From Pycnococcus provasolii (taxonomy: Eukaryota; Chlorophyta; Pseudoscourfieldiophyceae; Pseudoscourfieldiales; Pycnococcaceae): a stretch of DNA of 64,000 bases. The notes below the pieces were generated by a model, which searched no databases, was not told the origin of the DNA, and was given only the letters and a program-made list of their open reading frames with translations. Positions within the stretch are counted from its first letter, which is position 1; every line of letters starts with the position of its first letter. This document shows positions 5,749-61,142 of the stretch, in pieces. The translations under genes and the position numbers were made by a program. The stretch spans positions 124,001 through 188,000 of the forward strand of contig OW568886.1 of assembly GCA_938743325.2 (NCBI GenBank), in the 5' to 3' direction.

Positions 5749-6873
5749 TCATCCTCTTTCTCGTTCTCCGTGCGCCTTGCGCCCGCGCACGACTTCGGCC
5801 AACTCCTCGGCACGATTGCTCTGCACAGTCTCCGAGTGCGTGTTGAGCAAGTCGATGATCGCTTCGAGCTTCTCGGTGGACAAGAGCTTATACTTCTCCC
5901 ACCGCTGGGACATCGGCGGTGCCGGCTCCGTGGTCACGAACGGCGCGTCGAGCGACTCCACCACCTTCGTGGCCTTCTCGACATCACCTTCGCGCAGAAC
6001 CCAAATCGATAAGGTGGCATATGTCACCTCGCCTGGCAGCGCGGGGCTTCCCCCATACGTGCTTTTTCTGTCGTGGGCACGCTCATCCCACATGAGCGTG
6101 GTCGTCGAGGAGGCGAGCGGCTTCAGCACATCCTGTACCGCCCATTCGACGTCCGCGCTGTTCTGCGAGAGCGTCGTGTCGTACATGTTCCAGCATTTCA
6201 GCAAGTAGATCTCGCTCGGCATTCCGTCGCGCCACGACACGCCCTGTCGCTTCTTGAGCGTCTTCGCCTCGTACCAGGGCCCTCCGCCCCACGACCGTGA
6301 CTGCTGCACTCCGATTCCAATGCCCGTGCCCTCGAGGCGTCCGACCGCTCCGACGAGCAACCGGACGAAGTTCTCGGCGGCCTTCGCAATCGTCTCCACC
6401 TGCTCCTGCAGAATCGGCACATCGACTTGCAAGTCACCAGCCACAATTCGCTGAATCTCCCGCGAAAGAATTCCACTCCGCTCCTTGCTTGCGAGCCTGT
6501 GGCGCTCCTTGAGCTTCGCCACGTGCTCCGCTTTTTCTCCGCCCGCCGCGATGACGGCTGCTGCGCCAGCCCCTACGGTGTTGTAATCGTTCCTGTTTTT
6601 TTTCGCGACAGTTTCTGGGCAAGCGTTCGTCCACCGTATATGTGCTTGTTTATCCTTGGAGCTCGCTCCCGCCCCGTGCGCGCACCGTATCGAGCAATAG
6701 ACGTGCGCGCGGGCGTCGTCGGCGAACCTTGGCTTTTTCAAGCAACCAGCTCCGTCGCACGTCGCGCTGCGATTCGGCACGTCGCGAATTGCAGGAAACT
6801 TCGGCTTGTCGCCTTCCCGAAGCGCCGATCGTTTCTCTGCGGCGAGCCTCTTGTTCAGCTTTGTGGGCGCCAT
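5749..6873 (-). CDS. Hypothetical protein with an N-terminal Cys cluster (374 aa)
   Basis: No family is recognised. The start is taken at the ATG at 6873 (MAPTKLNKRLAAEKR); upstream in-frame codons lie over a short duplicated AACAATCTGATGAAACAAC sequence and look non-coding. Residues ~40-75 have Cys spaced CDGAGC ... YCSIRCAHG, a possible zinc-binding knuckle. The remainder is mixed alpha/beta with conserved-looking segments such as SWGGGPWYEAKTLKKRQGVS and PSEIYLLKCWNMYDTTLSQ. The C-terminus (RKAHGERERG) ends at a TGA, but a +1 frame continues through a strongly acidic tail of E, D and Q for about 28 codons. A single-base indel or a small intron near the end is therefore possible. Confidence 0.55.
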   Translation of the reverse strand: MAPTKLNKRLAAEKRSALREGDKPKFPAIRDVPNRSATCDGAGCLKKPRFADDARAHVYCSIRCAHGAGASSKDKQAHIRWTNACPETVAKKNRNDYNTVGAGAAAVIAAGGEKAEHVAKLKERHRLASKERSGILSREIQRIVAGDLQVDVPILQEQVETIAKAAENFVRLLVGAVGRLEGTGIGIGVQQSRSWGGGPWYEAKTLKKRQGVSWRDGMPSEIYLLKCWNMYDTTLSQNSADVEWAVQDVLKPLASSTTTLMWDERAHDRKSTYGGSPALPGEVTYATLSIWVLREGDVEKATKVVESLDAPFVTTEPAPPMSQRWEKYKLLSTEKLEAIIDLLNTHSETVQSNRAEELAEVVRGRKAHGERERG

Positions 6874-7033
6874 CAAGAACAATCTGATGAAACAACAAAC
6901 AACAACAATCTGATGAAACAACAACAATCTCGACCCTCGGCGGGAAATTTGAAAGATCCGGAGACGCAAGGGGAAATCCGGGGAAAAAAGGAAAAAGGAG
7001 GGCCATACACAGGAATCGGATCCTGTATGGTAG

Positions 7034-7166
7034 GGGTCATGGTAGTGTAAGGTGTCTGCTCCGTGCGCGCGGCCTAAGGCTCCATACCGGGGCGCGCAAG
7101 GCGCGCGCCCCGGTGTTCCCGCCTTGTGCCGTGCTCCTCCGCAGACACCTTACACTACCATGACCC
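7034..7166. repeat. 133-bp element with perfect 26-bp terminal inverted repeats
   Basis: Bases 7034-7059 are the exact reverse complement of 7141-7166. The interior is itself palindromic and GC-rich (CCGGGGCGCGC ... GCGCGCCCCGG), so the unit could fold into a long hairpin. It has no coding content. No target-site duplication is evident, so it may be a fold-back or MITE-like element, or a structured 5' region of the gene at 7337. Confidence 0.75.
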
Positions 7167-7222
7167 AAAACGGAGCCATAAACCGGAGAACAGCCACTCC
7201 TAGAACTTCCTCCCTTCCTCTC

Positions 7223-7274
7223 TCCTTCCTTCCTTCCTTCCTTCCTTCCTTCCTTCCTTCCTTCCTTCCTTCCT
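7223..7274. repeat. (TTCC)n microsatellite
   Basis: About thirteen tandem copies of a CTTC/TTCC tetramer run up to about 60 bp before the ATG at 7337. Confidence 0.95.
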
Positions 7275-7336
7275 CCCCTCTTCCGGCGGCCAAAGTTTCT
7301 AACAATTTCTAACCCTGACAAAAAAACTACAAAGGC

Positions 7337-7762
7337 ATGGACACCGTGAACAAGATTCGCCTGGATCGCTTTCAAGCGAAACTAAGGGAAGGCCACGCCA
7401 ACGTCACCAACGTCGAATCAGTGTCGAAGATTTACATGAGTATGCACGGAATCGGCAACGAGTCGAACGAGATGCAGGATGCCGCGGATATGAATATCCT
7501 GGCGGAGGCGTACTGGAAAGTTGCGAGCAAGCGCTACATCGACAATGTTAGCATGGTGATGATGAACGACATCCTCGGGCAACTGCCGAATCGTATCGAG
7601 TCTCGCTTGATGGAGGTTGTTGTTGGCGGCGAAATCATGACGTTCTTTGCTCAGTCTGCGGCCGATGTCTCTCGTCGCAAGCGACTGGAGGAGAAGATTG
7701 TGCGTTTGAAGAAGGCGAGCCAAACGCTGCGCTCGTGCCTGCTCGGCGAAGGAGGCGTTTAA
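7337..7762 (+). CDS. Stand-alone dynamin GTPase effector domain (GED) protein
   Basis: The 141-residue protein looks like the C-terminal GED of dynamin-related proteins. It has the YWKVASKRYIDNVSMVMMND helix, a second helix (LPNRIESRLMEVVV), then FFAQSAADVSRRKRLEEKIV, matching the usual tail in which a short acidic or Ser-rich linker precedes RxxLExxIxRLxxA. GED folds back on the GTPase and stalk to stimulate hydrolysis and self-assembly. Here no GTPase domain is present and the 5' flank is repeats, so this is either a GED-only protein or the last piece of a disrupted dynamin gene. The start is the first ATG after the microsatellite (GGCATGG). Confidence 0.65.
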   Translation: MDTVNKIRLDRFQAKLREGHANVTNVESVSKIYMSMHGIGNESNEMQDAADMNILAEAYWKVASKRYIDNVSMVMMNDILGQLPNRIESRLMEVVVGGEIMTFFAQSAADVSRRKRLEEKIVRLKKASQTLRSCLLGEGGV

Positions 7763-7912
7763 GCCAGCTCCGCCGTCTCTCCCTCCATGGTTTGTTGATG
7801 AATATGGAATAGACGAAGGACTTGTTGCTTGAGGAGGTTGGACAAAAAAAACAAAGGGGAATCAACAAAGGGGGAACGGGAAAGTGGAAAGTAAATGAAC
7901 CCGGTAATAAAG

Positions 7913-8179
7913 TTAACACCTAAGTTGAACCTCAGCTTCACGGCGAGCGTCGCGTTCCCTTAACAACGACAGCTCCAACTCCTTAATCTTCTCAGCAGCC
8001 GCTGTCGATCCAGACTCCAGCGCGGCCAATCGTCCGGCGAGAACCTCCACAGAGACAGGAGAAGGCAAGGGAGTAGGAATCTTCTCTTCTTCCTTTTCTT
8101 CTCCTTCAGCCTGCGCAGCAGCGTCCTTAAATTCTTCTTCGCCTCCTTGCGAGGCGGTTGCGTCGTCCTCTGACGACAT
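7913..8179 (-). CDS. Small acidic coiled-coil protein (88 aa)
   Basis: The ORF starts at ATG 8179 (MSSEDDATASQGGEEE), with an acidic and Pro-rich first half (EEKEEEKIPTPLPSPV) and a heptad-like second half (LAGRLAALESGSTAAAEKIK, ELELSLLRERDARREAEVQL). It is too short to assign. Composition and codon use are gene-like and differ from the flanking AT-rich DNA. It could be the 5' exon of a spliced gene, but no clear acceptor is seen downstream. Confidence 0.45.
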   Translation of the reverse strand: MSSEDDATASQGGEEEFKDAAAQAEGEEKEEEKIPTPLPSPVSVEVLAGRLAALESGSTAAAEKIKELELSLLRERDARREAEVQLRC

Positions 8180-8597
8180 AAGTTAATCTCTTATCTTCTT
8201 AATCACTGATTAAGGGTCAATTGTCACTCAGGTAAAGTGTGCGTCCACCCGTACTACTAGTAGTCGGAGGCTTCGTGAGTGTGCTCACGAAAGCCGGAAG
8301 CCGGCTTCATAAATAAGACGTTCCTTAGAGGCTTAGACTAGGGTGGTACTTACCAGCAAGAATACAATACGAATAGTTGAAAATAGGGACCCGAACGCCA
8401 ATTCACCTGGAAAGCTCACCTTGATGAAAGCCCTTTCCCAGAACTTTCCCAGAACTTTGCAAGCTCTTGCAAGGAGCTTGGCAACCACACCTTGAGGAGG
8501 GTTTGGCTTGTACATAGTCAACGGCACGCCTTTGAGAACTCACCTTGTAGTCAACACCAGGTTTCTTGTTGTCACTCAGAGCACGTCACAATCAGTC
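8180..8597. other. Intergenic spacer with hairpins
   Basis: There is no gene in this 418-bp stretch. A small stem-loop (TTCGTGAG ... CTCACGAA, 8272-8291) and an adjacent AAGCCGGAAGCCGGCTT imperfect palindrome are visible. It separates a divergent pair and probably holds both promoters. Confidence 0.4.
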
Positions 8598-51716: not shown

Positions 51717-51816
51717 TGTAAAACGAAAGATTGTTTTGACGGAGAAAAATGTCACAAAAAACATCTTTTCCAAACCCCCAAAAAAACTTTTTCTTTTTTC
51801 CTTCGGATGTTTTTGG

Positions 51817-52019
51817 GATGCAGGTCCCCCCCTTCTACCGTAGTTTAGGGACGCTGTTTAGACCCCAAAAAGCGGTTTAGGGACGCGTTTTTTCGTCCCT
51901 AAACTGTTTAGGGACGTTTTCTCGGAATAGCGGGGGAGGAGGTCGGCGCCTCTTGATTGGGGGTTAGGCGAGGTCGGCGCCCCCCTGCCCCCCCCCCCCC
52001 CCGTCCCCGTCGCCCGCCA
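51817..52019 (+). repeat. Left terminal inverted repeat
   Basis: Reverse complement of 59149-59351, differing mainly in the length of a C/G homopolymer. It contains a hairpin-forming CGTCCCTAAAC/GTTTAGGGACG set. Confidence 0.92.
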
Positions 52020-53088
52020 GGCGCGCATCACGCCGTGCAAGCGGTCGTTCCATATTTCGGAGCGCATCGGCAAGCTGCCTCGAAATATCCGCGCGGCACG
52101 ATAGCGCCGCGCCAATCAGCAAGTGCTCTTGATGCTTGAGAACGGCGCGCCAGTGCTCGTCGACGCTTAGCGTTGTCAGCGTGCTCACGCTGATCTGCCC
52201 GCACGCCTCCGTCCACGACCGGCCTCCCTGCTGAGCAGGCTTGTGCGTCACCTGCGCGAGCCGAATGAGGCTGTGTACAAACGAGTGAGCGGCGTGCCGT
52301 CTTGCAAGCTCTGCTTGCACCAGCGCACTTGGACGCAGGTTGGATGGCAGGTTCAGAAGGCGGCACAGTATGTACGTCGCGGCATGTGTCACCTCCATTT
52401 CCTGCATGCTCGCAACCTGCGCAGAGGAGGCGGACATGTACTGCACGCCACTCCCGCACGCGAGCGAGTCAGCGAGCGCAGCGACGAGCGAAATGACGCG
52501 CGTGCCCGGAGGAGCTTGAGCTTGGAGCTGCTGGCTGGAGCCGCCTTCGCCGGCGAACGATACCATAAAGTCCAAGCCGACTTGCGTTGCCGCTAAGCCG
52601 GCAAGCGCCGCGATGGCGGACACCTGGACGAGCCCGAGTCGTCGCTGGCGCACGAGTCCGCAGATGCCGTTCAGCAGCGCGCGTCCCTCGACGCAAAGCC
52701 GCGGCTTGCCCTTGTCGTCCACGTTCGCGTGGTGAAACCCTCTCCACGCACCGTGCAGGCTGTTCCCCGCAATCGCGCTTGAGCCGCGCAGAACGACGTC
52801 GAGGGACGCCTCCCCAGCTTCGAGAATCGCGGGTGGAATGGCAGTCGTATCGCCGTCTCGTCTCGGCTGGTCCGCGAACGTCGCGAGCGCGAGCATGCAC
52901 TCCGCCAGCGCCGCCACCGCCGCCTGACTGCGTGCAATGCAGAAGCAGTTCGTGGAGCTCGCGCTGGCGGCGTTGCGCAGCACTGTCACTGCGGCGGCCA
53001 CCGTCTGGTGCGCGTGCTCGTGCTCCGACTCCTCTTCGAACAGCTCCGGCTCGAGGTCCCACCACCAGACGAGGCGTATTTTATCATT
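51964..53088 (-). pseudogene. ARM/HEAT-like host-gene fragment captured in the transposon
   Basis: A long frame with gene-like codon use encodes an all-helical, Ala/Leu-rich protein (FCIARSQAAVAALAECMLAL, ALLNGICGLVRQRRLGLVQV, MEVTHAATYILCRLLNLPSN). It has no proper start: the frame is open upstream through DLEPELFEEESEHEHAHQ and ends at a stop at 53089-53091 with no ATG. Its last residues (DGDGGGGGQGGADLA) are encoded by the left TIR itself. A 5'-truncated piece of a host gene caught between TIR and interior is the simplest reading. I cannot name the parent family; helical repeats suggest an ARM or nucleoporin-like protein. Confidence 0.55.
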
Positions 53089-53275
53089 TCAGGGCACTGC
53101 GAGATATTGAAAGACTATAATATTGAGTATCACACGGGCATGAAGACGGCGCTCCTGTTCCCACGGGCGAAGGCCATCCTTTGGAAGAGGAACTCACGCT
53201 CGTCGTCACGCGCGCCAAGCCGAAGAAGTTCTACGACTGTAAAAGTGTAAGATAAATTCTTGATTACTAAAATGT

Positions 53276-53827
53276 TTACTTCGTGAACCTCCCATGACTG
53301 TCCCTTTTTTGTTTGCACGGTCGCCCCTGACGACGTGGTTCTCGTGTCACACGTGGTGGTGAAATTTGGGCTGGTTCCCAACCCGTGTTCTTCGCGGTGA
53401 AGTTCGCCCCGTATCCGAGGCACAGGAACTGGTCAGGTTGGAGGTCCTTCATCTGCTCCAGGTACGCTCCACGGTTCGACGCCTTAAGCTTGCAGTTCCT
53501 TCCGGCTCCCGTACCCCAGGCCGCGAGCTGGGGTCCACACCTCTCTGGGAGTAGTATCGTATCTTCTGCCAGGCGCACGACGTCTCCCTTGTTCACGAGG
53601 TGGTCCAAGGTCTCCTCTTCCGACCTGCTCACCCTGCCTCGCCACTCCATGAGCCTGCGAAACTTCTTCGGCGTGTAGAGCGTCTCCTTCTTCACCACTG
53701 CTTTCAGCACATCCTTACCTATGTACTTCAAGCCGAGTCCAGGCACCCCTGGCTGCTTGGCTGTGACAAACCTCACACCACCAGGCAGGTTCACAAAACG
53801 CGGCGAACGCCTTAGCTTCTTCTCCAT
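53276..53827 (-). CDS. Hypothetical protein inside the transposon (183 aa)
   Basis: Start ATG 53827 (MEKKLRRSPRFVNLPGGVRF). No family is recognised. It is basic at both ends (C-terminus RREPRRQ-like, RDSHGRFTK), with a middle rich in conserved-looking segments (LKYIGKDVLKAVVKKETLYT, LAEDTILLPERCGPQLAAW, QFLCLGYGANFTAKNTG). The last segment faintly recalls the end of SET-type folds but the key motifs are absent. Upstream sits a 30-bp stem-loop (53872-53901) plus CCCTAA repeats. Confidence 0.4.
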   Translation of the reverse strand: MEKKLRRSPRFVNLPGGVRFVTAKQPGVPGLGLKYIGKDVLKAVVKKETLYTPKKFRRLMEWRGRVSRSEEETLDHLVNKGDVVRLAEDTILLPERCGPQLAAWGTGAGRNCKLKASNRGAYLEQMKDLQPDQFLCLGYGANFTAKNTGWEPAQISPPRVTREPRRQGRPCKQKRDSHGRFTK

Positions 53828-53871
53828 GGCAATGTTGTCCACCGTGAATCTATTCCGTCCCCTTCTTGGAT

Positions 53872-53925
53872 AGGTGTCTTTTTACCCCAAAAAAGACACC
53901 TAACCCTAACCCTAACCCCAAACCG
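53872..53925. repeat. Stem-loop followed by CCCTAA repeats (diverged copy of the 164-bp unit)
   Basis: AGGTGTCTTTTT and AAAAAGACACCT arms enclose a short loop (53872-53901), followed by four telomere-like CCTAACCC units. The same arms and the adjoining telomere-like sequence recur in each 164-bp repeat at 54631-55205. Confidence 0.75.
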
Positions 53926-54191
53926 CACCAACACCGGATCCCTGACACCTCCTTGCACCTTGCGATGGCCGACCGGCCAGGCCGCGCACCTAATACTTTC
54001 GGCCATGGCCTTGCCACGCAGGCCGCGCACCTAACTAATACTTTCGGCCATGCCCTTGCCATGGCCTTGCATAAGAGGTGATGCCGTCACCGTCACCGGC
54101 TAGTACGAGTACACCAAAGTGTAACAAGGTGTCATGTGTGTGTTTTGTTTGTAATATCAATGTGTTCAAGTAACAAAAAAAAAAACTCTTC

Positions 54192-54527
54192 TCACCCCTC
54201 GAAGGCATGATGTAGAACAGCTAACGCGACGTCCGCATTTGTCTCGACCAAGAACTCCAACTCCCTGCACATGTGTTCTATTTCCCAGTCGTCGTCAGAA
54301 AGAGGCACATTAACAAAAAAGTGGGCATCACTTTTATAATAGTGCGGCAACACTCCGCCTTTATTTATTAAAAACGCGACAACTTCTGCTTGGTTGTAGT
54401 AGTAGCTGTTGGGTTCGAGCGCGCGCAGCAGTGGCTGATAGCCGTCCTCCCACTCGTTCACGTCGCCACCTTTTTCGACGAGGCAAACGAGGTCGTGCAG
54501 GTCACAGTACTTGGCCGCTTCATTCAT
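54192..54527 (-). CDS. Small ankyrin-like protein inside the transposon (111 aa)
   Basis: Start ATG 54527 (MNEAAKYCDLHDLVCLVEKG). The sequence follows the ankyrin pattern: KYCDLHDLVCLVEKGGDVNE, then GYQPLLRALE, EVVAFLINKGGVLPHY and LEFLVETNADVALAVLHHAF, about three diverged repeats. It is too short to be a full ankyrin array, so it may be a captured fragment or a small binding protein. The upstream GTGAATCTAT..TTCCGTCCCC sequence is shared with the gene at 53827. Confidence 0.45.
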   Translation of the reverse strand: MNEAAKYCDLHDLVCLVEKGGDVNEWEDGYQPLLRALEPNSYYYNQAEVVAFLINKGGVLPHYYKSDAHFFVNVPLSDDDWEIEHMCRELEFLVETNADVALAVLHHAFEG

Positions 54528-54630
54528 CGTGGCCACCTCCACAACCCGGACGGAACAATGTACCCCGGGAAGGCGGGAACAGTGTACTGTGAATCTATAT
54601 TCCGTCCCCTGCTCGAGGATGAACGACCAT

Positions 54631-55205
54631 GACCCGCTTTGACCGGCCCCGTGGTCGTGCATTCAAGGAGCAATCCAAAGTTTGTTGTTTCTCTCGAGAG
54701 CACTTACTACGGGGGGGGAGGTGTCTTTTTAAGCTTAAAAAGACACCTAGCCCTAACCCCCGGCACCCCGGTTGATGCCACCTCCTTGCTCCTTGACCCG
54801 CTTTGACCGGCCCCGTGGTCGTGCATTCAAGGAGCAATCCAAAGTTTGTTGTTTCTCTCGAGAGCACTTACTACGGGGGGGGAGGTGTCTTTTTAAGCTT
54901 AAAAAGACACCTAGCCCTAACCCCCGGCACCCCGGTTGATGCCACCTCCTTGCTCCTTGACCCGCTTTGACCGGCCCCGTGGTCGTGCATTCAAGGAGCA
55001 ATCCAAAGTTTGTTGTTTCTCTCGAGAGCACTTACTACGGGGGGGGAGGTGTCTTTTTAAGCTTAAAAAGACACCTAGCCCTAACCCCCGGCACCCCGGT
55101 TGATGCCACCTCCTTGCTCCTTGACCCGCTTTGACCGGCCCCGTGGTCGTGCATTCAAGGAGCAATCCAAAGTTTGTTGTTTCTCTCGAGAGCACTTACT
55201 ACGGG
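54631..55205. repeat. Tandem 164-bp repeats (3.5 copies) built on a perfect 30-bp palindrome
   Basis: Units start at 54631, 54794, 54958 and 55122 (TGACCCGCTTTGACCGG); the last is partial. Each full unit has a perfect palindrome (54719-54748, 54883-54912, 55047-55076; centre TTTTTAAGCTTAAAAA) followed by a telomere-like CCTAGCCCTAACCCC. Copies are almost identical, so the array is young. Confidence 0.93.
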
Positions 55206-55389
55206 TGAGCTTTTCCTCCTTGCTCCTCCTCCCGTCTGCCCGTTGTTACCCCGTTGTTAACGGATAATTACCCCGTTTACGCCTGTTTACGCCTTTCCCG
55301 CCTCCCCCCCCCCAGGGGTCGCGTTGTACCAAGGGAACTAAAACATAGTTTGACACATGGGTGTTTAACTCCCCTTGCCTATAGCCACC

Positions 55390-57297
55390 ATGCCGCGATG
55401 CCAATCGCGGACGACGCACGCAGCGAGCTGCGCCGCCGGCAATGCCAGTCAACTGCCGACACCGTGCTCGTGTTGCCACGCCGCCGGCAATGCCAGTCAA
55501 CCGCCGACGATGCACGCACCGTCCTCCACCGCCGGCAATGTGGGCCAACCGCCGACGGCAAAGAGGGCGCGTAAGCTGAAGTTGTGCCCTTCGTGCCGAA
55601 CCATGGCAAGTAGCAACCGCCAGTTGACTTGCTCCAATTGCAGCAAAGGTTTTGACGAAGAACGCCGTGCTCTTGAAACGTACACGTCAGTTCCCGCAAG
55701 AGCTCCTGTAGGGAGCTCGCGTGGAGGTGCGTTTTCGCGGCGCGGGAACGCACCTGCGGCAAATCTCTCGGGCGTTGCACAAGAGCATGCGGGATATGAC
55801 GACGACGACGACGCGCATGGTTTTGTGCCACCAGCAAGCCCTGGAATCGATGCATACGGTGGAGTAGCAGAAACGGGTGCTACGTACTCGCAGAACGTGA
55901 CGTACAAAGGTCTCTCCGCGAGACACCTTGCGAGCAACGCAACGCGCACTGCGTTCATATACGCGGTCCCTGAACTTGGAGGAGAAACAGAACGCGGTTG
56001 TCACGAACACGTGCTCCTCATAAAGCTTCCTGGTGGTGACGTGCACCTCGCGTGTACATGCACAGGTCACGAAGAGGTTGTGTGTGGTGTCTATTGGGGT
56101 GACGTGGACAAGTTCAACGAAGTTGAAGTTCGTGACTCATGCGCCAAGTGCAAGCACACTGAGGTCGTGATGAATGCCGCCTTCAAACACGACGACTCTG
56201 TCTGCTCTTATCAACACGGAAAGCTCGACTTGAGCGCGTCGAACTGGCAAGGGGAGGACGACGTGACGTTGCCAGTGCAAGTGGGCCGAACGGACGACGT
56301 ATGGCTCATTCACCAACCTGAGTCGAACGTTCACGTGCCTGCGAGTCTTTCGGTGGCGAAGTCATCTGACGGCCACGTGTGGCCGCGGGCTTGCGTCACA
56401 TCCGGGTCAGTACCAAACCGATCCAGGGAAGACGAGGTATGGATTTGCTGCTCGTGCAGCACGAAGTACAAGTGCAGCCACGTTGCACTAGCCGCGAATG
56501 CGGTTGACGACGTCTTCGCATGCATTGACGAGAGCACCATGCTTGAAGATAACTTCGCTTCATGCTTTTTGTTTTCTGACGTATGCACCAAGGAAACGCT
56601 GGACACGTTACCTGCTTCGACGAGTGACGTGTGCAGCGTTTCCCCTGGAGTCTCGAGACAAGATGTTCCAACATCGTATTTGTGGCCGCATTCTCTTGCT
56701 CGAAGCGAGAACCTGATACGTGGAGGTGGCATCATACATCCGTGCTCTTCATGCGCAGCCATTGGCCAAAAGTGCGCGCACCTTACGGACGCGAAGCCTG
56801 AGGACGCCCCTTCGTGCTGCAATGGATGGAAATTGAGAATCGCCGAAAGCGACGCAGTGCTCCTGCACGAAACCTGCGTGGCGTCCGTTGTTGTTCATGA
56901 ATGGGCGTGCGAGTGCGGCAAGCACGTTGTGCCGTTCGACGGGAAATCCAGCGGTATCTTCAATTGGTCAAACAAAACGTTGGCGACACATGAATTGTGC
57001 CTTGATTTCTACAACCAGTTCGTTCTGGACGGACGAACCTTCACATCGCATTGGAGGTCACAAAACAGGAAGATGGAGCGCGCAGGATTCCAAGGATTTG
57101 TGGGAAGGCGTGTCTACAACCCCGAATCGGTATTTTTTGACCTTTTTAACCCCGAATTCAAGAATAACGTTTTTCACGAATTGTTTCTTCGTACGCGTGT
57201 ACTACGTTTGCTTAAGGACGTCTTCGACCTTGCATACGTGAAAACTCGCCCCGTAAGTGCCGTACGAATAACGTGTCATCTCCATGTTTTCGTGTAG
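55390..57297 (+). CDS. Cys/SWIM-rich transposon protein resembling the N-terminal part of KDZ-type transposases
   Basis: First ATG 55390 (MPRCQSRTTHAASC). The start is a small coding minisatellite (CAAGNASQ.PPT units). A CPSC ... CSNC zinc knuckle follows (~60-85), then two SWIM-like Cys/His groups (HLACTCTGHEEVVCG; WICCSCSTKYKCSHVALAAN) and a third Cys block (HPCSSCAAIGQKCAH). Residues ~500-600 (EWACECGKHVVPFDGKSSGI, FNWSNKTLATHELCLDFYNQ, TFTSHWRSQ) are the pattern I associate with the CxC and linker region of Kyakuja-Dileera-Zisupton transposases. The catalytic core that should follow is missing. A perfect donor-like GTAAGT at 57253 and continued reading in the same frame after 57310 suggest the frame originally continued, by intron or after loss of the core. 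Confidence 0.5.
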   Translation: MPRCQSRTTHAASCAAGNASQLPTPCSCCHAAGNASQPPTMHAPSSTAGNVGQPPTAKRARKLKLCPSCRTMASSNRQLTCSNCSKGFDEERRALETYTSVPARAPVGSSRGGAFSRRGNAPAANLSGVAQEHAGYDDDDDAHGFVPPASPGIDAYGGVAETGATYSQNVTYKGLSARHLASNATRTAFIYAVPELGGETERGCHEHVLLIKLPGGDVHLACTCTGHEEVVCGVYWGDVDKFNEVEVRDSCAKCKHTEVVMNAAFKHDDSVCSYQHGKLDLSASNWQGEDDVTLPVQVGRTDDVWLIHQPESNVHVPASLSVAKSSDGHVWPRACVTSGSVPNRSREDEVWICCSCSTKYKCSHVALAANAVDDVFACIDESTMLEDNFASCFLFSDVCTKETLDTLPASTSDVCSVSPGVSRQDVPTSYLWPHSLARSENLIRGGGIIHPCSSCAAIGQKCAHLTDAKPEDAPSCCNGWKLRIAESDAVLLHETCVASVVVHEWACECGKHVVPFDGKSSGIFNWSNKTLATHELCLDFYNQFVLDGRTFTSHWRSQNRKMERAGFQGFVGRRVYNPESVFFDLFNPEFKNNVFHELFLRTRVLRLLKDVFDLAYVKTRPVSAVRITCHLHVFV

Positions 57298-57309
57298 TAA
57301 TTACACGAA

Positions 57310-57852
57310 ATGAAGAATCGGTCAGTGACGAACGGCGACAACAAGCGCTGGCACTTGGAGCCTGCTGGTGGGTGCACGGCGACTGCGAAAAGTACACTGA
57401 ACATGTTCATGAAAAGCCTGCCGGTCACGCACGGCATCGCCACGCCGAGTGTGAAGCAGCCTACTTGGCTGCACAGTGAGAAAGGATGCCTTGCGGGGCC
57501 AGGGCACTTCGACTACTCCAAGGACAACAGGAACGCCGGCAAGTACGGCATGGTTGCGGCGCTGTCACCACAGGGCGCAACCTTCGAGTACAAGAAGGAT
57601 AGGAACGCGGAAGTATGGGAGCGGGTGGAGCTGAAGAAGGGCGATTCACCGCTGGCGTCAGAGACGGACGTGACTGCGAGCTCACCCGAGGTGGTCAAAC
57701 ACACCCACGACGACACCTCACCAACTACTGCTAGAACCGCCAGCATTACCGACGACAACATCTCCCAACGCGACGGACCCGGCGACAACCACTACTACAT
57801 TGCAGGCGCTGCCACTTCCCCCACCGCCCCCACCACCACAAACTTCAGCTGA
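57310..57852 (+). pseudogene. Continuation of the transposon reading frame (unknown domain)
   Basis: It lies in the same frame as the Cys-rich protein, 12 nt after its stop. It reads a compact segment (KQPTWLHSEKGCLAGPGHFD, YSKDNRNAGKYGMVAALSPQ) then a Ser/Thr-rich linker. No family is recognised. At ~57800-57850 it overlaps, in a C-rich run, the frame that encodes the chromodomain, so a one-base frameshift separates the two. Confidence 0.45.
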
Positions 57853-58177
57853 CGACGATACGTTCGAGGTCACGGATGTCCTGTGTTGGAGATGGGTGCG
57901 TGGCCGCAAGGCCTATCTGGTGCAATGGATTGGCAGCGCGCCGGACAGTTGGCACTTCGGCGAGGACTTAGCGGCGCTCGGCGACAGGCTCAGCGAGGTG
58001 CCAGAACTCGACGAAGCCATCTGCGACGTCTGCGCTTCACTCGACGCACGACACCCGCAATTCGGCGCAATGCTACTCTGCTCCACAGACGGCTGCGGAG
58101 GCGCGCGGCATGTGAAGTGCGACAATCGCACTCGAGTACCCAGCGGCACCTGGTGGTGCATCCAGTGCCGCGAGTAA
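57803..58177 (+). pseudogene. Chromodomain plus PHD finger, no start codon of its own
   Basis: FEVTDVLCWRWVRGRKAYLV, then QWIGSAPDSWHFGEDLAAL, is a chromodomain (aromatic cage residues W/Y/W visible). ICDVCASLDARHPQFGAMLL, then CSTDGCGGARHVKCDN and TWWCIQC, is a PHD-type C4HC3 zinc finger. Neither has an ATG upstream in frame, so it must be joined to the preceding frame by splicing or by correcting a frameshift in the C-rich run at 57810-57840. Chromodomains at transposase or integrase C-termini direct insertion to modified chromatin. Confidence 0.65.
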
Positions 58178-58387
58178 CGCACGGTGGATCCGGTTCCAAC
58201 TGTTTCGTGGGATCCGGTTCCCCGCCAGACCAGGTTCTGACACCCACGGCGGATCCGGATCCGCAACCCCCCACTCTTCTCTCGTCTCGGCCGCTGGGCG
58301 CCCGCCTGCCTGCCCCTCCGCACTCTCTCCCTCGCGCGTTGCCTGCCCCGGCGGGCGCCCCGAAAGGAGGTGGTAAAGAAAGGCGAT

Positions 58388-58464
58388 GGTGAAGACCGTT
58401 CCCGTGAATACGGGCTGACGCCCGCATACCACCTCCTTTCGGGGGGCGTTGCTGCCCTGAGAAA
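58388..58464. repeat. 77-bp direct repeat, copy 1
   Basis: Matches 58703-58779. It contains a CCCGTGAATACGGG palindrome. Together with CCCCGAAAGGAGGTGG (58357-58372) its CCACCTCCTTTCGGGG end forms a further hairpin. Confidence 0.9.
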
Positions 58465-58482
58465 GGCCCACATTTCCAGTGT

Positions 58483-59094
58483 TCACACGGAAATTTGGGG
58501 TTTTCTACAGGGGGCACGCCGAGAAGGGAGGTTCCCTTCACGCCCCATGGAAAGGCCGCCCGGGGGGCGGCCTTTCCCTTGCTCCTCCTCCTTCCCGCCC
58601 GACCCGTCCGAACCTCCATCACTCTTGAGAAGAGAACGGACGGGCGACTGACGGGGATAGGCGTAGGAGACCGGGAAGGGTCGCCGAAAAATTTTTTTTT
58701 TCGGTGAAGACCGTTCCCGTGAATACGGGCTGACGCCCGCATACCACCTCCTTTCGGGGGGCGTTGCTGCCCTGAGAAAAAAATTAGCAACTCTTGTAAG
58801 CACATCCACAACTCCAGGATTCGCAGATACATATTCGTTAATACTCTTCCCGTTCCGAGCAAGTTCTTGCAGTAAGGCAAGTTCTTCGCTATTAAGTTCA
58901 GGCGCCAGTGAATCACGAAACACACCTATGCGGTTAGAAATCTTTCGCTTCCGCGACCACGCACCGCTGCTCGTGTGCGAAACGCGGGGGCCTTCAGGAG
59001 ACAGTTGAAGTACTAAACCTTTACGGTCGTCTACAGGTACTGAAGAAGTTTGGGCAAGGGCGCGTAGTCGCGCCAAGTCACCTCTTGAGCACAT
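58483..59094 (-). CDS. Hypothetical ORF near the right transposon end
   Basis: First ATG 59094 (MCSRGDLARLRALAQTSSVP). About 105 residues look gene-like (KISNRIGVFRDSLAPELNSE, ELALLQELARNGKSINEYVS); after LTRVANFFLR the frame runs into the 77-bp repeat and low-complexity sequence. It may be the 5' end of a gene truncated by the repeat. No family is recognised. Confidence 0.35.
   Translation of the reverse strand: MCSRGDLARLRALAQTSSVPVDDRKGLVLQLSPEGPRVSHTSSGAWSRKRKISNRIGVFRDSLAPELNSEELALLQELARNGKSINEYVSANPGVVDVLTRVANFFLRAATPPERRWYAGVSPYSRERSSPKKKIFRRPFPVSYAYPRQSPVRSLLKSDGGSDGSGGKEEEQGKGRPPGGLSMGREGNLPSRRAPCRKPQISV
58703..58779. repeat. 77-bp direct repeat, copy 2
   Basis: Second copy of 58388-58464, adjoining a T-run (58691-58700). 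Confidence 0.9.
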
Positions 59095-59148
59095 GATGGA
59101 GTCAGTCTTATACCTCAAGCGATACTGTCAGACTGTGGTAGTCTAATA

Positions 59149-59351
59149 TGGCGGGCGACGGGGACGGGGGGGGGGGGGGGCAGGGGGGCGCCGACCTCGC
59201 CTAACCCCCAATCAAGAGGCGCCGACCTCCTCCCCCGCTATTCCGAGAAAACGTCCCTAAACAGTTTAGGGACGAAAAAACGCGTCCCTAAACCGCTTTT
59301 TGGGGTCTAAACAGCGTCCCTAAACTACGGTAGAAGGGGGGGACCTGCATC
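59149..59351 (-). repeat. Right terminal inverted repeat
   Basis: Reverse complement of 51817-52019; followed by the 8-bp duplication GTTTTTGG at 59352-59359. Confidence 0.92.
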
Positions 59352-59412
59352 GTTTTTGGGCCTGATTCCATTCCCCTGTCTTTGTCCCTTCCCCCTCTGG
59401 TGTTTTCCCGCC

Positions 59413-60207: not shown

Positions 60208-60657
60208 CTACTTCACCAGCAGGCCAGTCATCGTGAGCGGGTCCGGGAAGTAGCGGTTGACCTCGATGATGCTGTTTTGTGTTGGTTTGTGTAGGGGTAT
60301 TTTGTGCGTTGTTAGATACCGTTGTGTTTTAGGTCCCAGTGCGAATATCGAGGGAAATCTGAAACGAAAGACGTACAGTCCGCTCATGAAGATGAGGAAG
60401 GCAAACGTGACGACCGGCGCGGTGGACAGGTACGTCGTGAAGGACACCATGCCTGGGGGCGGGGCTTTTTTCGCCGCCATCATAACGACAGACGAACGAC
60501 GCGCGGACACCACGACAGACGACGCCGGGGACGCCGGGGAAGAGGCCGAGCGAGCAGGCGCACGCATATTCGCCCGCACCTTCACGGAGCGAGAGCGAAC
60601 CGCACCACAAGCCTTGACAGGTCGCGTGAGTGCTTTGAGTCCGAGAGCGAGCGCCAT
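60208..60657 (-). CDS. PSAJ: Nuclear-encoded photosystem I subunit IX (PsaJ), two exons
   Basis: Exon 1 is 60657-60377, exon 2 is 60271-60208, intron 60272-60376 (105 nt; GTACGT ... AAACAG). The spliced product is 114 aa. The first ~69 residues are a plastid transit peptide (MALALGLKALTRPVKACGAV ..., A/S/R/V-rich, few acids). The mature part reads MVSFTTYLSTAPVVTFAFLI, a single membrane helix, then GLIIEVNRYFPDPLT, which is the PsaJ C-terminus (GLLIEINRFFPDxL in plants). Unspliced reading inserts an out-of-place basic segment between the two halves. PsaJ is normally plastid-encoded and helps stabilise PsaF and plastocyanin docking; here it is a nuclear gene. Confidence 0.85.
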   Translation of the reverse strand: MALALGLKALTRPVKACGAVRSRSVKVRANMRAPARSASSPASPASSVVVSARRSSVVMMAAKKAPPPGMVSFTTYLSTAPVVTFAFLIFMSGLYVFRFRFPSIFALGPKTQRYLTTHKIPLHKPTQNSIIEVNRYFPDPLTMTGLLVK

Positions 60658-61142
60658 GATCGTTGTATTTGGGTATGAAGAGAAGCGAGGAGTTGGAGGG
60701 CGGAGCGCTGCGGGGGAAGGGGAAGGGTTCGCAAAAAGAGATAAGATGAAAGATTGCAACGATGGATTTCTCGAACTGGGGGGGCAGGGGAACAGACCCG
60801 TACACGGGGGAAAAGGCCGGGGGCAGGCCGGGGGAGGATACCGGTTCCTGTTCGGGGTTTGGTTGGGGTTTGGGGGTTTTACTGGTTTTCGGGTTTCGCA
60901 GTCAGGTCTCGCAGTCCGTCTCTCGTTCGGGGTCGGGATCCACACGTTTGCGCAAACACACAACCACTGTCACGTGTGTTTGCGCAAGCCCAGCCCTAGG
61001 GAGCCGGTAGCCCGAGCACCCTCCTCCCCTCCTCCCCTCCCCGGGCCCACTTGCACCGCCTTGCCTAAGGTTACGGTAGCACGCCTGAAAACGGCACGCC
61101 GACGACGCCTCACACTTCACTCTTCCCGGGAGAGTGCTCGTC
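60658..61142. promoter_or_regulatory. Divergent promoter region (PsaJ / vWA protein)
   Basis: 485 bp between head-to-head genes. G-rich GGGTTTGG/GGGGTTT repeats at 60855-60900 resemble the telomere-like motifs seen upstream of other genes. CACGTTTGCGCAAACACA at 60943-60960 and its near-complement at 60972-60988 form an imperfect palindrome. Confidence 0.4.

Follow-up and report, generated by a model that had tools for sequence, protein, structure and literature searches.

Described relatives and the element in Pycnococcus provasolii

Pack-TYPE elements (Pack-MULE, Pack-CACTA and Pack-TYPE hAT) enclose host-gene fragments between terminal inverted repeats (TIRs) and a target duplication, without a recognised transposase, and their copies are alike at the ends and unlike inside. 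Both traits are shared by a 7,535-bp element at positions 51817-59351 of a 64,000-nucleotide stretch of the green alga Pycnococcus provasolii (the window; C26:124001-188000), which was analysed here together with its relatives in the same genome. The plant systems are tied to known superfamilies, whereas in the alga no autonomous partner was found, the terminus is common only to elements without a recognised transposase domain, and uncharacterised open reading frames (ORFs A to D) are retained by the elements of both diverged groups. Acquisition of DNA by fusion of elements has been reported for Pack-TYPE elements in the accessible sections of PMC8903248.

The second system to be compared is the Kyakuja-Dileera-Zisupton (KDZ) group. 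In the accessible sections of PMC12730594, 8-bp target duplications are given for Zisupton and Dileera, the length that is also found here, and fungal KDZ elements are said to be able to carry a TET/JBP dioxygenase. Zisupton and Kyakuja have been reported from Chlamydomonas (PMC8226300, accessible sections). A further likeness is a CxC4 cysteine cluster, which occurs in the C26 copy only.

The element in the window is a real transposon that has moved recently and is apparently non-autonomous. It probably belongs to a family of Pack-TYPE-like cut-and-paste elements with patched interiors that are moved in trans, the KDZ group being the likeliest source of the transposase. A published description of such a pair of gene-capturing groups did not turn up in the searches made of open-licence literature. 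The family would take Pack-TYPE gene capture into a prasinophyte green alga whose genome of 32 Mb allows donors, copies and patches to be compared base by base, and the near-identical ends around different middles would make interior rebuilding directly testable.

Ends, target duplications and recent movement

As the original prediction had stated, the element is bounded by TIRs of 203 nt, here found to be 100% complementary, and a perfect 8-bp duplication, GTTTTTGG, abuts both ends. The TIR is not unique: the left arm gave seven matches in the genome. Six of them bound three complete elements, and the seventh is a 95-bp fragment on C4. The two further complete elements lie on C9 (3,250 bp) and C44 (1,169 bp) and are flanked by perfect 8-bp duplications of their own, ACACTGTT and CTGGGTAC, respectively. 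Because these differ from GTTTTTGG, it is unlikely that the 8-mer in the window is part of a longer duplicated context.

On their left sides, the C26 and C9 elements are identical over 2,111 bp; on the right, 574 bp align without mismatch and with one 2-bp gap, so that no substitution separates them across 2,685 bp in total. In the C26 copy, these matching sides flank 53928-58779. The C44 element shares 620 bp at 100% and, at its other end, 176 bp of the TIR with one mismatch. Near-identical stretches in three insertions with different duplications therefore bear out the recent movement that had been proposed.

Searching for the terminus pattern GATGCAGGTCNNCCCCTTC revealed 24 sites in the genome (22 exact and two with one mismatch), against none for a control pattern. 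Sixteen of them pair into eight elements of 0.4-10.9 kb. Besides the three described above, these are located on C2 (10,889 bp, duplication CGAGCTTG), C22 (8,516 bp, AGAAATCG), C17 (400 bp, CTCAAATC) and C31, where a first element of 4,236 bp (GTCTACAC; read at its ends only) and a second of 2,900 bp were found. The perfect stretches of the TIRs range from 29 to 203 bp and reach 150 bp in C2. According to the two bases that follow GATGCAGGTC, the elements fall into a CC group (C26, C9 and C44) and an AG group comprising all others, termed the second group below. The C22 element holds an inner inverted copy of its own end region and looks composite; its positions 5997-8296 encode two ORFs (522 and 251 amino acids) that we take to resemble parts of a tyrosine-recombinase retroelement.

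A segmental duplication or an assembly artefact might also produce inverted repeats next to a matching 8-mer, and one of the eight paired elements indeed has no duplication. Perfect 8-bp duplications that differ from each other at exactly the same element ends, as found in the other seven, contradict this explanation and leave it hardly credible.

Captured fragments of host genes

All three elements of the CC group carry a fragment of a host gene of which a longer copy lies on C12 (Table 1). Its ORF in the window (51964-53088, minus strand) terminates inside the TIR, and the C12 counterpart is a longer open frame of 585 amino acids, of which codons 200-541 align. The original prediction of a truncated ARM-like host gene with its stop in the TIR thus held with respect to host origin and stop; the ARM label did not, as the ORF matched no Pfam family. 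Between the C26 fragment and its putative donor, seven non-synonymous and three synonymous differences were counted, which is compatible with no selection on the captured protein, although these numbers are small.

In the second group, a different fragment lies near one TIR, with 1,468 bp, or 931-1,228 bp of the same sequence, at eight places and about 100% identity. It is ZIP-like, a label that is weak (Pfam E=0.0013, below the cut-off), and matches C29:236332-237443 with 98% over 1,131 bp. Since the terminus pattern is not present near this locus, C29 is the likely donor. Judged from these alignments, both groups appear to contain what characterises Pack-TYPE elements, a captured piece of a host gene whose donor is still present elsewhere in the genome, on C12 and likely on C29.

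Interior of the C26 copy

The features of the element are listed in Table 1. The gene set had been regarded as distinctive. Its ORFs are present, and the set turned out to be of mixed origin, with ORFs conserved among the elements next to captured host DNA and sequence from other repeats.

Table 1. Features of the C26 element in window coordinates
Feature	Position	Strand	Remarks
Target-site duplication, left copy, 8 bp, GTTTTTGG	51809..51816	.	directly outside left TIR
Left TIR, 203 bp	51817..52019	+	repeated GTTTAGGGACG motifs, three direct and one inverted
Captured host-gene fragment ('ARM-like')	52038..53072	-	98.8% over 1,036 bp to C12:42810-43845
ORF B, 201 amino acids stop to stop	53276..53881	-	conserved in second group
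ORF D, 156 amino acids, weakly ankyrin-like	54192..54662	-	conserved in C2 element
Tandem array, 164-bp unit, 3.5 copies, 30-bp palindrome per unit	54630..55205	.	
Cys-rich ORF, 642 amino acids, CxC4 (PF18717) at residues 478-578	55369..57297	+	without KDZ core
Dispersed repeat, 200 bp, 3' end of the 642-amino-acid ORF	57118..57317	+	100% to C4:427683-427882
ORF C remnant, HFD motif, cut off at 57703	57301..57702	+	489-amino-acid relative in C22 element
3' end of another retroelement-like repeat, with PHD-like segment	57703..58784	+	
ORF A, N-terminal part only	58780..59094	-	longer in C9 (342 amino acids), C2 (408) and P0002 (364)
Right TIR, 203 bp	59149..59351	-	100% complementary to left TIR
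Target-site duplication, right copy, 8 bp, GTTTTTGG	59352..59359	.	directly outside right TIR

The predicted ankyrin-like ORF exists as ORF D, with an Ank_4 match below the cut-off (E=0.074). A chromodomain-PHD module had also been proposed as cargo. No chromodomain was reported in the window ORFs by the Pfam scan, and the PHD matches of 57703-58784 all remained below the Pfam cut-offs (best E=0.00019). Seven further copies of this segment exist in the genome, all with a common 3' end (58779-58784); they begin at 57703, 58070, 58254 or 58461-58465 (four copies), and a shorter match lies on C28 in addition. Such recurrence with a common 3' end rules it out as the element's own cargo; judging from these copies, it is the 3' end of a separate retroelement-like repeat family, either of the long terminal repeat (LTR) type or non-LTR.

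The copy-specific middle of C26 includes a retroelement-like 3' end. That of C44 consists of about 370 bp of filler, related to loci on C20 (97% of amino acids over residues 37-124) and C40, and forms one open frame of 280 amino acids with the captured host-gene fragment, to which it is joined in frame (L025 1729-2571). C44 thereby illustrates patching. The filler was considered as the family transposase on account of what we presumed to be a transposase-like look; this was rejected, as it is related to the C20 and C40 loci and has no Pfam match.

The sequences themselves show the ends with their duplications, the near-identity of copies, the likely donors, the ORFs common to both groups and the exchanged interiors; cut-and-paste movement and supply in trans are inferred. 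In this reading, the C26 element would be a single copy of a cut-and-paste DNA transposon belonging to one of two related groups, both with the terminus GATGCAGGTCNNCCCCTTC and 8-bp target duplications. A transposase supplied in trans would bind the TIRs and move the intervening DNA, and between rounds of movement the interior would be rebuilt, leaving the same ends around different middles. Pieces of host genes and of other repeats would be patched into the middle, which is Pack-TYPE behaviour; interrupted repair or the fusion of elements may be the process behind it.

The palindromic array that had been described was found as predicted. Its palindrome with TAACCC-type tails occurs singly at window 53872-53912 and within the array at 54719-55087, and has short matches on C1, C4, C12 and C19. 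About 6.7 kb of sequence (96%) is duplicated within C12:291001-301000 and C4:842001-852000; this stretch includes a tandem array whose units measure about 196 bp, and it adjoins copies of this palindrome and of the repeat at window 57179-57287.

Conserved ORFs and possible machinery

Both groups contain ORFs A, B, C and D, of which ORF A adjoins the TIR opposite the captured fragment. Protein identity between the groups over aligned codons amounts to 44% for A (272 codons), 54% for B (177), 67% for D (76) and 37% for C (99); over the longer stretches aligned by BLASTP, it is 36%, 52-53%, 59% and 36%, respectively. Identity at codon positions 1/2/3 was 0.56/0.66/0.46 for A, 0.66/0.70/0.40 for B, 0.83/0.80/0.66 for D and 0.46/0.59/0.48 for C. 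By codon positions, A, B and D look as expected of constrained coding sequence; the pattern is not clear for C.

In the protein database, ORF A has two relatives, P0002 and P0003 (ENA source), with 20 and 8 member sequences and longest contigs of 1,481 and 1,509 bases, which may be transcripts. ORF D was rejected as the C-terminus of ORF A, as the two are fused in C4 only and P0002 ends differently. Searching the PDB with three proteins gave a best E of 0.41, scans of viral contigs with five proteins gave no relative, and AlphaFold without alignment yielded a mean predicted local distance difference test (pLDDT) score of 35.9 for ORF B and 35.6 for P0002.

ORF C of the C22 element had weak PHROG matches to 2OG-Fe(II) oxygenase (E=0.011) and endonuclease V (E=0.015), and in Pfam a weak RecC_C match only (E=0.086); its motif presumably reads HFD. 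This resembles in part the dioxygenase cargo of fungal KDZ elements, as a candidate only and not as a demonstrated TET/JBP enzyme.

The longest reading frame in the second group is open throughout over 1,540 amino acids on C2 and 1,536 on C4. The scans made gave no domain and no solved relative, none of 7,993 scored candidates in the protein database reached E<=0.001 with residues 560-1540, and comparison with the CxC4 ORF indicated no relation. Because part of it resembles the captured ZIP-like fragment, it may be composite.

These proteins raise the question of whether the second group is autonomous and also moves the group in the window, with the 1,540-amino-acid ORF or ORFs A-D as an undescribed transposase. 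The length of the intact frame in elements with the shared terminus and the apparent constraint on A, B and D speak for it; nothing indicates transposase activity of the possibly composite large ORF, and the group that includes the C26 element showed nothing corresponding to it, so that we regard this as rather unlikely. Equally improbable is an undescribed superfamily with 8-bp duplications that is run by these orphan proteins, repeatedly captures host genes beside one TIR and possibly uses a 2OG-Fe(II) dioxygenase to counter silencing. Were ORFs A-D or the 1,540-amino-acid protein the machinery, a new type of transposase would be at hand.

The CxC4 protein and the origin of the transposase

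The claim of a Cys/SWIM-rich protein of KDZ flavour was in part confirmed. A Pfam profile search matched CxC4 (PF18717) in the 642-amino-acid ORF with E=6.8e-13 and 49 bits (cut-off 26.9), and one pattern at residue 361 is what we take to be SWIM-like. The KDZ core (PF18758) had no match in the genome, and none in any of 14 control genomes either. In the KDZ layout as we assume it, the dispersed repeat occupies the spot where the core would come next. Searching the protein database with the CxC4 ORF returned its own record alone. This record (P0001) is 540 amino acids long, and its longest contig measures 704,272 bases, compared with 616,396 for C26; another assembly seems to hold the ORF.

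Pfam scans of element ORFs gave no match to a known transposase domain, and the predicted non-autonomy holds in this sense only. The 8-bp duplications together with a CxC4/SWIM-type protein in the C26 copy make a transposase of the KDZ group most likely, an unproven assignment and the least certain step. If it is true, algae would harbour KDZ elements that capture genes and that may, like their fungal counterparts, carry an oxygenase gene.

Several observations weigh against this explanation as a whole or against its KDZ part. A duplication is absent from the second C31 element, eight of the 24 termini are unpaired (C1, C4, C5, C8, C20, C22, C27 and C29), and an autonomous element did not turn up. 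The KDZ core model had no match in the genome, nor in the controls. Outside the window, the sole trace of CxC4 was a fragment on C30 below the threshold, and the second group had none; the CxC4 ORF, being thus confined to the window copy, could have been captured too. For two fungal Kyakuja families, duplications of 7 bp and a lack of TIRs are given (PMC12730594, accessible sections), unlike the 8 bp and TIRs found here.

A Pack-MULE- or Pack-hAT-like origin was considered as well, in which a MULE or hAT transposase would come from another locus and the CxC4 ORF would be a fragment captured from an unrelated KDZ element. Neither domain was present in the element ORFs scanned, the genome not having been searched for either transposase, and MULE target duplications are typically 9-11 bp long. 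The long TIRs (203 bp in C26 and a perfect 150 bp in C2), the 8-bp duplications and the gene capture would all fit, as would a CxC4 ORF that is single-copy and continues into a dispersed repeat. The accessible sections of PMC8903248 report Pack-TYPE hAT elements whose duplications are 8 nt long. On balance, we consider this origin unlikely.

Genome and neighbouring genes

The assembly comprises 32.33 Mb in 46 contigs, and the chromosome table of P. provasolii CCAP190/2 lists 44 chromosomes and two organelle sequences (PMC11130579, accessible sections). Of the neighbours named in the original prediction, 'REV1' is a Y-family polymerase by Pfam (IMS, E=2.3e-44), and 'NICN1' had no Pfam support.

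At window 60208-60969 (minus strand) lies an ORF that matches PsaJ (PF01701, E=1.8e-8, profile positions 1-25 of 37) and has a long extension at its N-terminus. PsaJ is normally plastid-encoded, and this ORF sits on a nuclear-sized chromosome.

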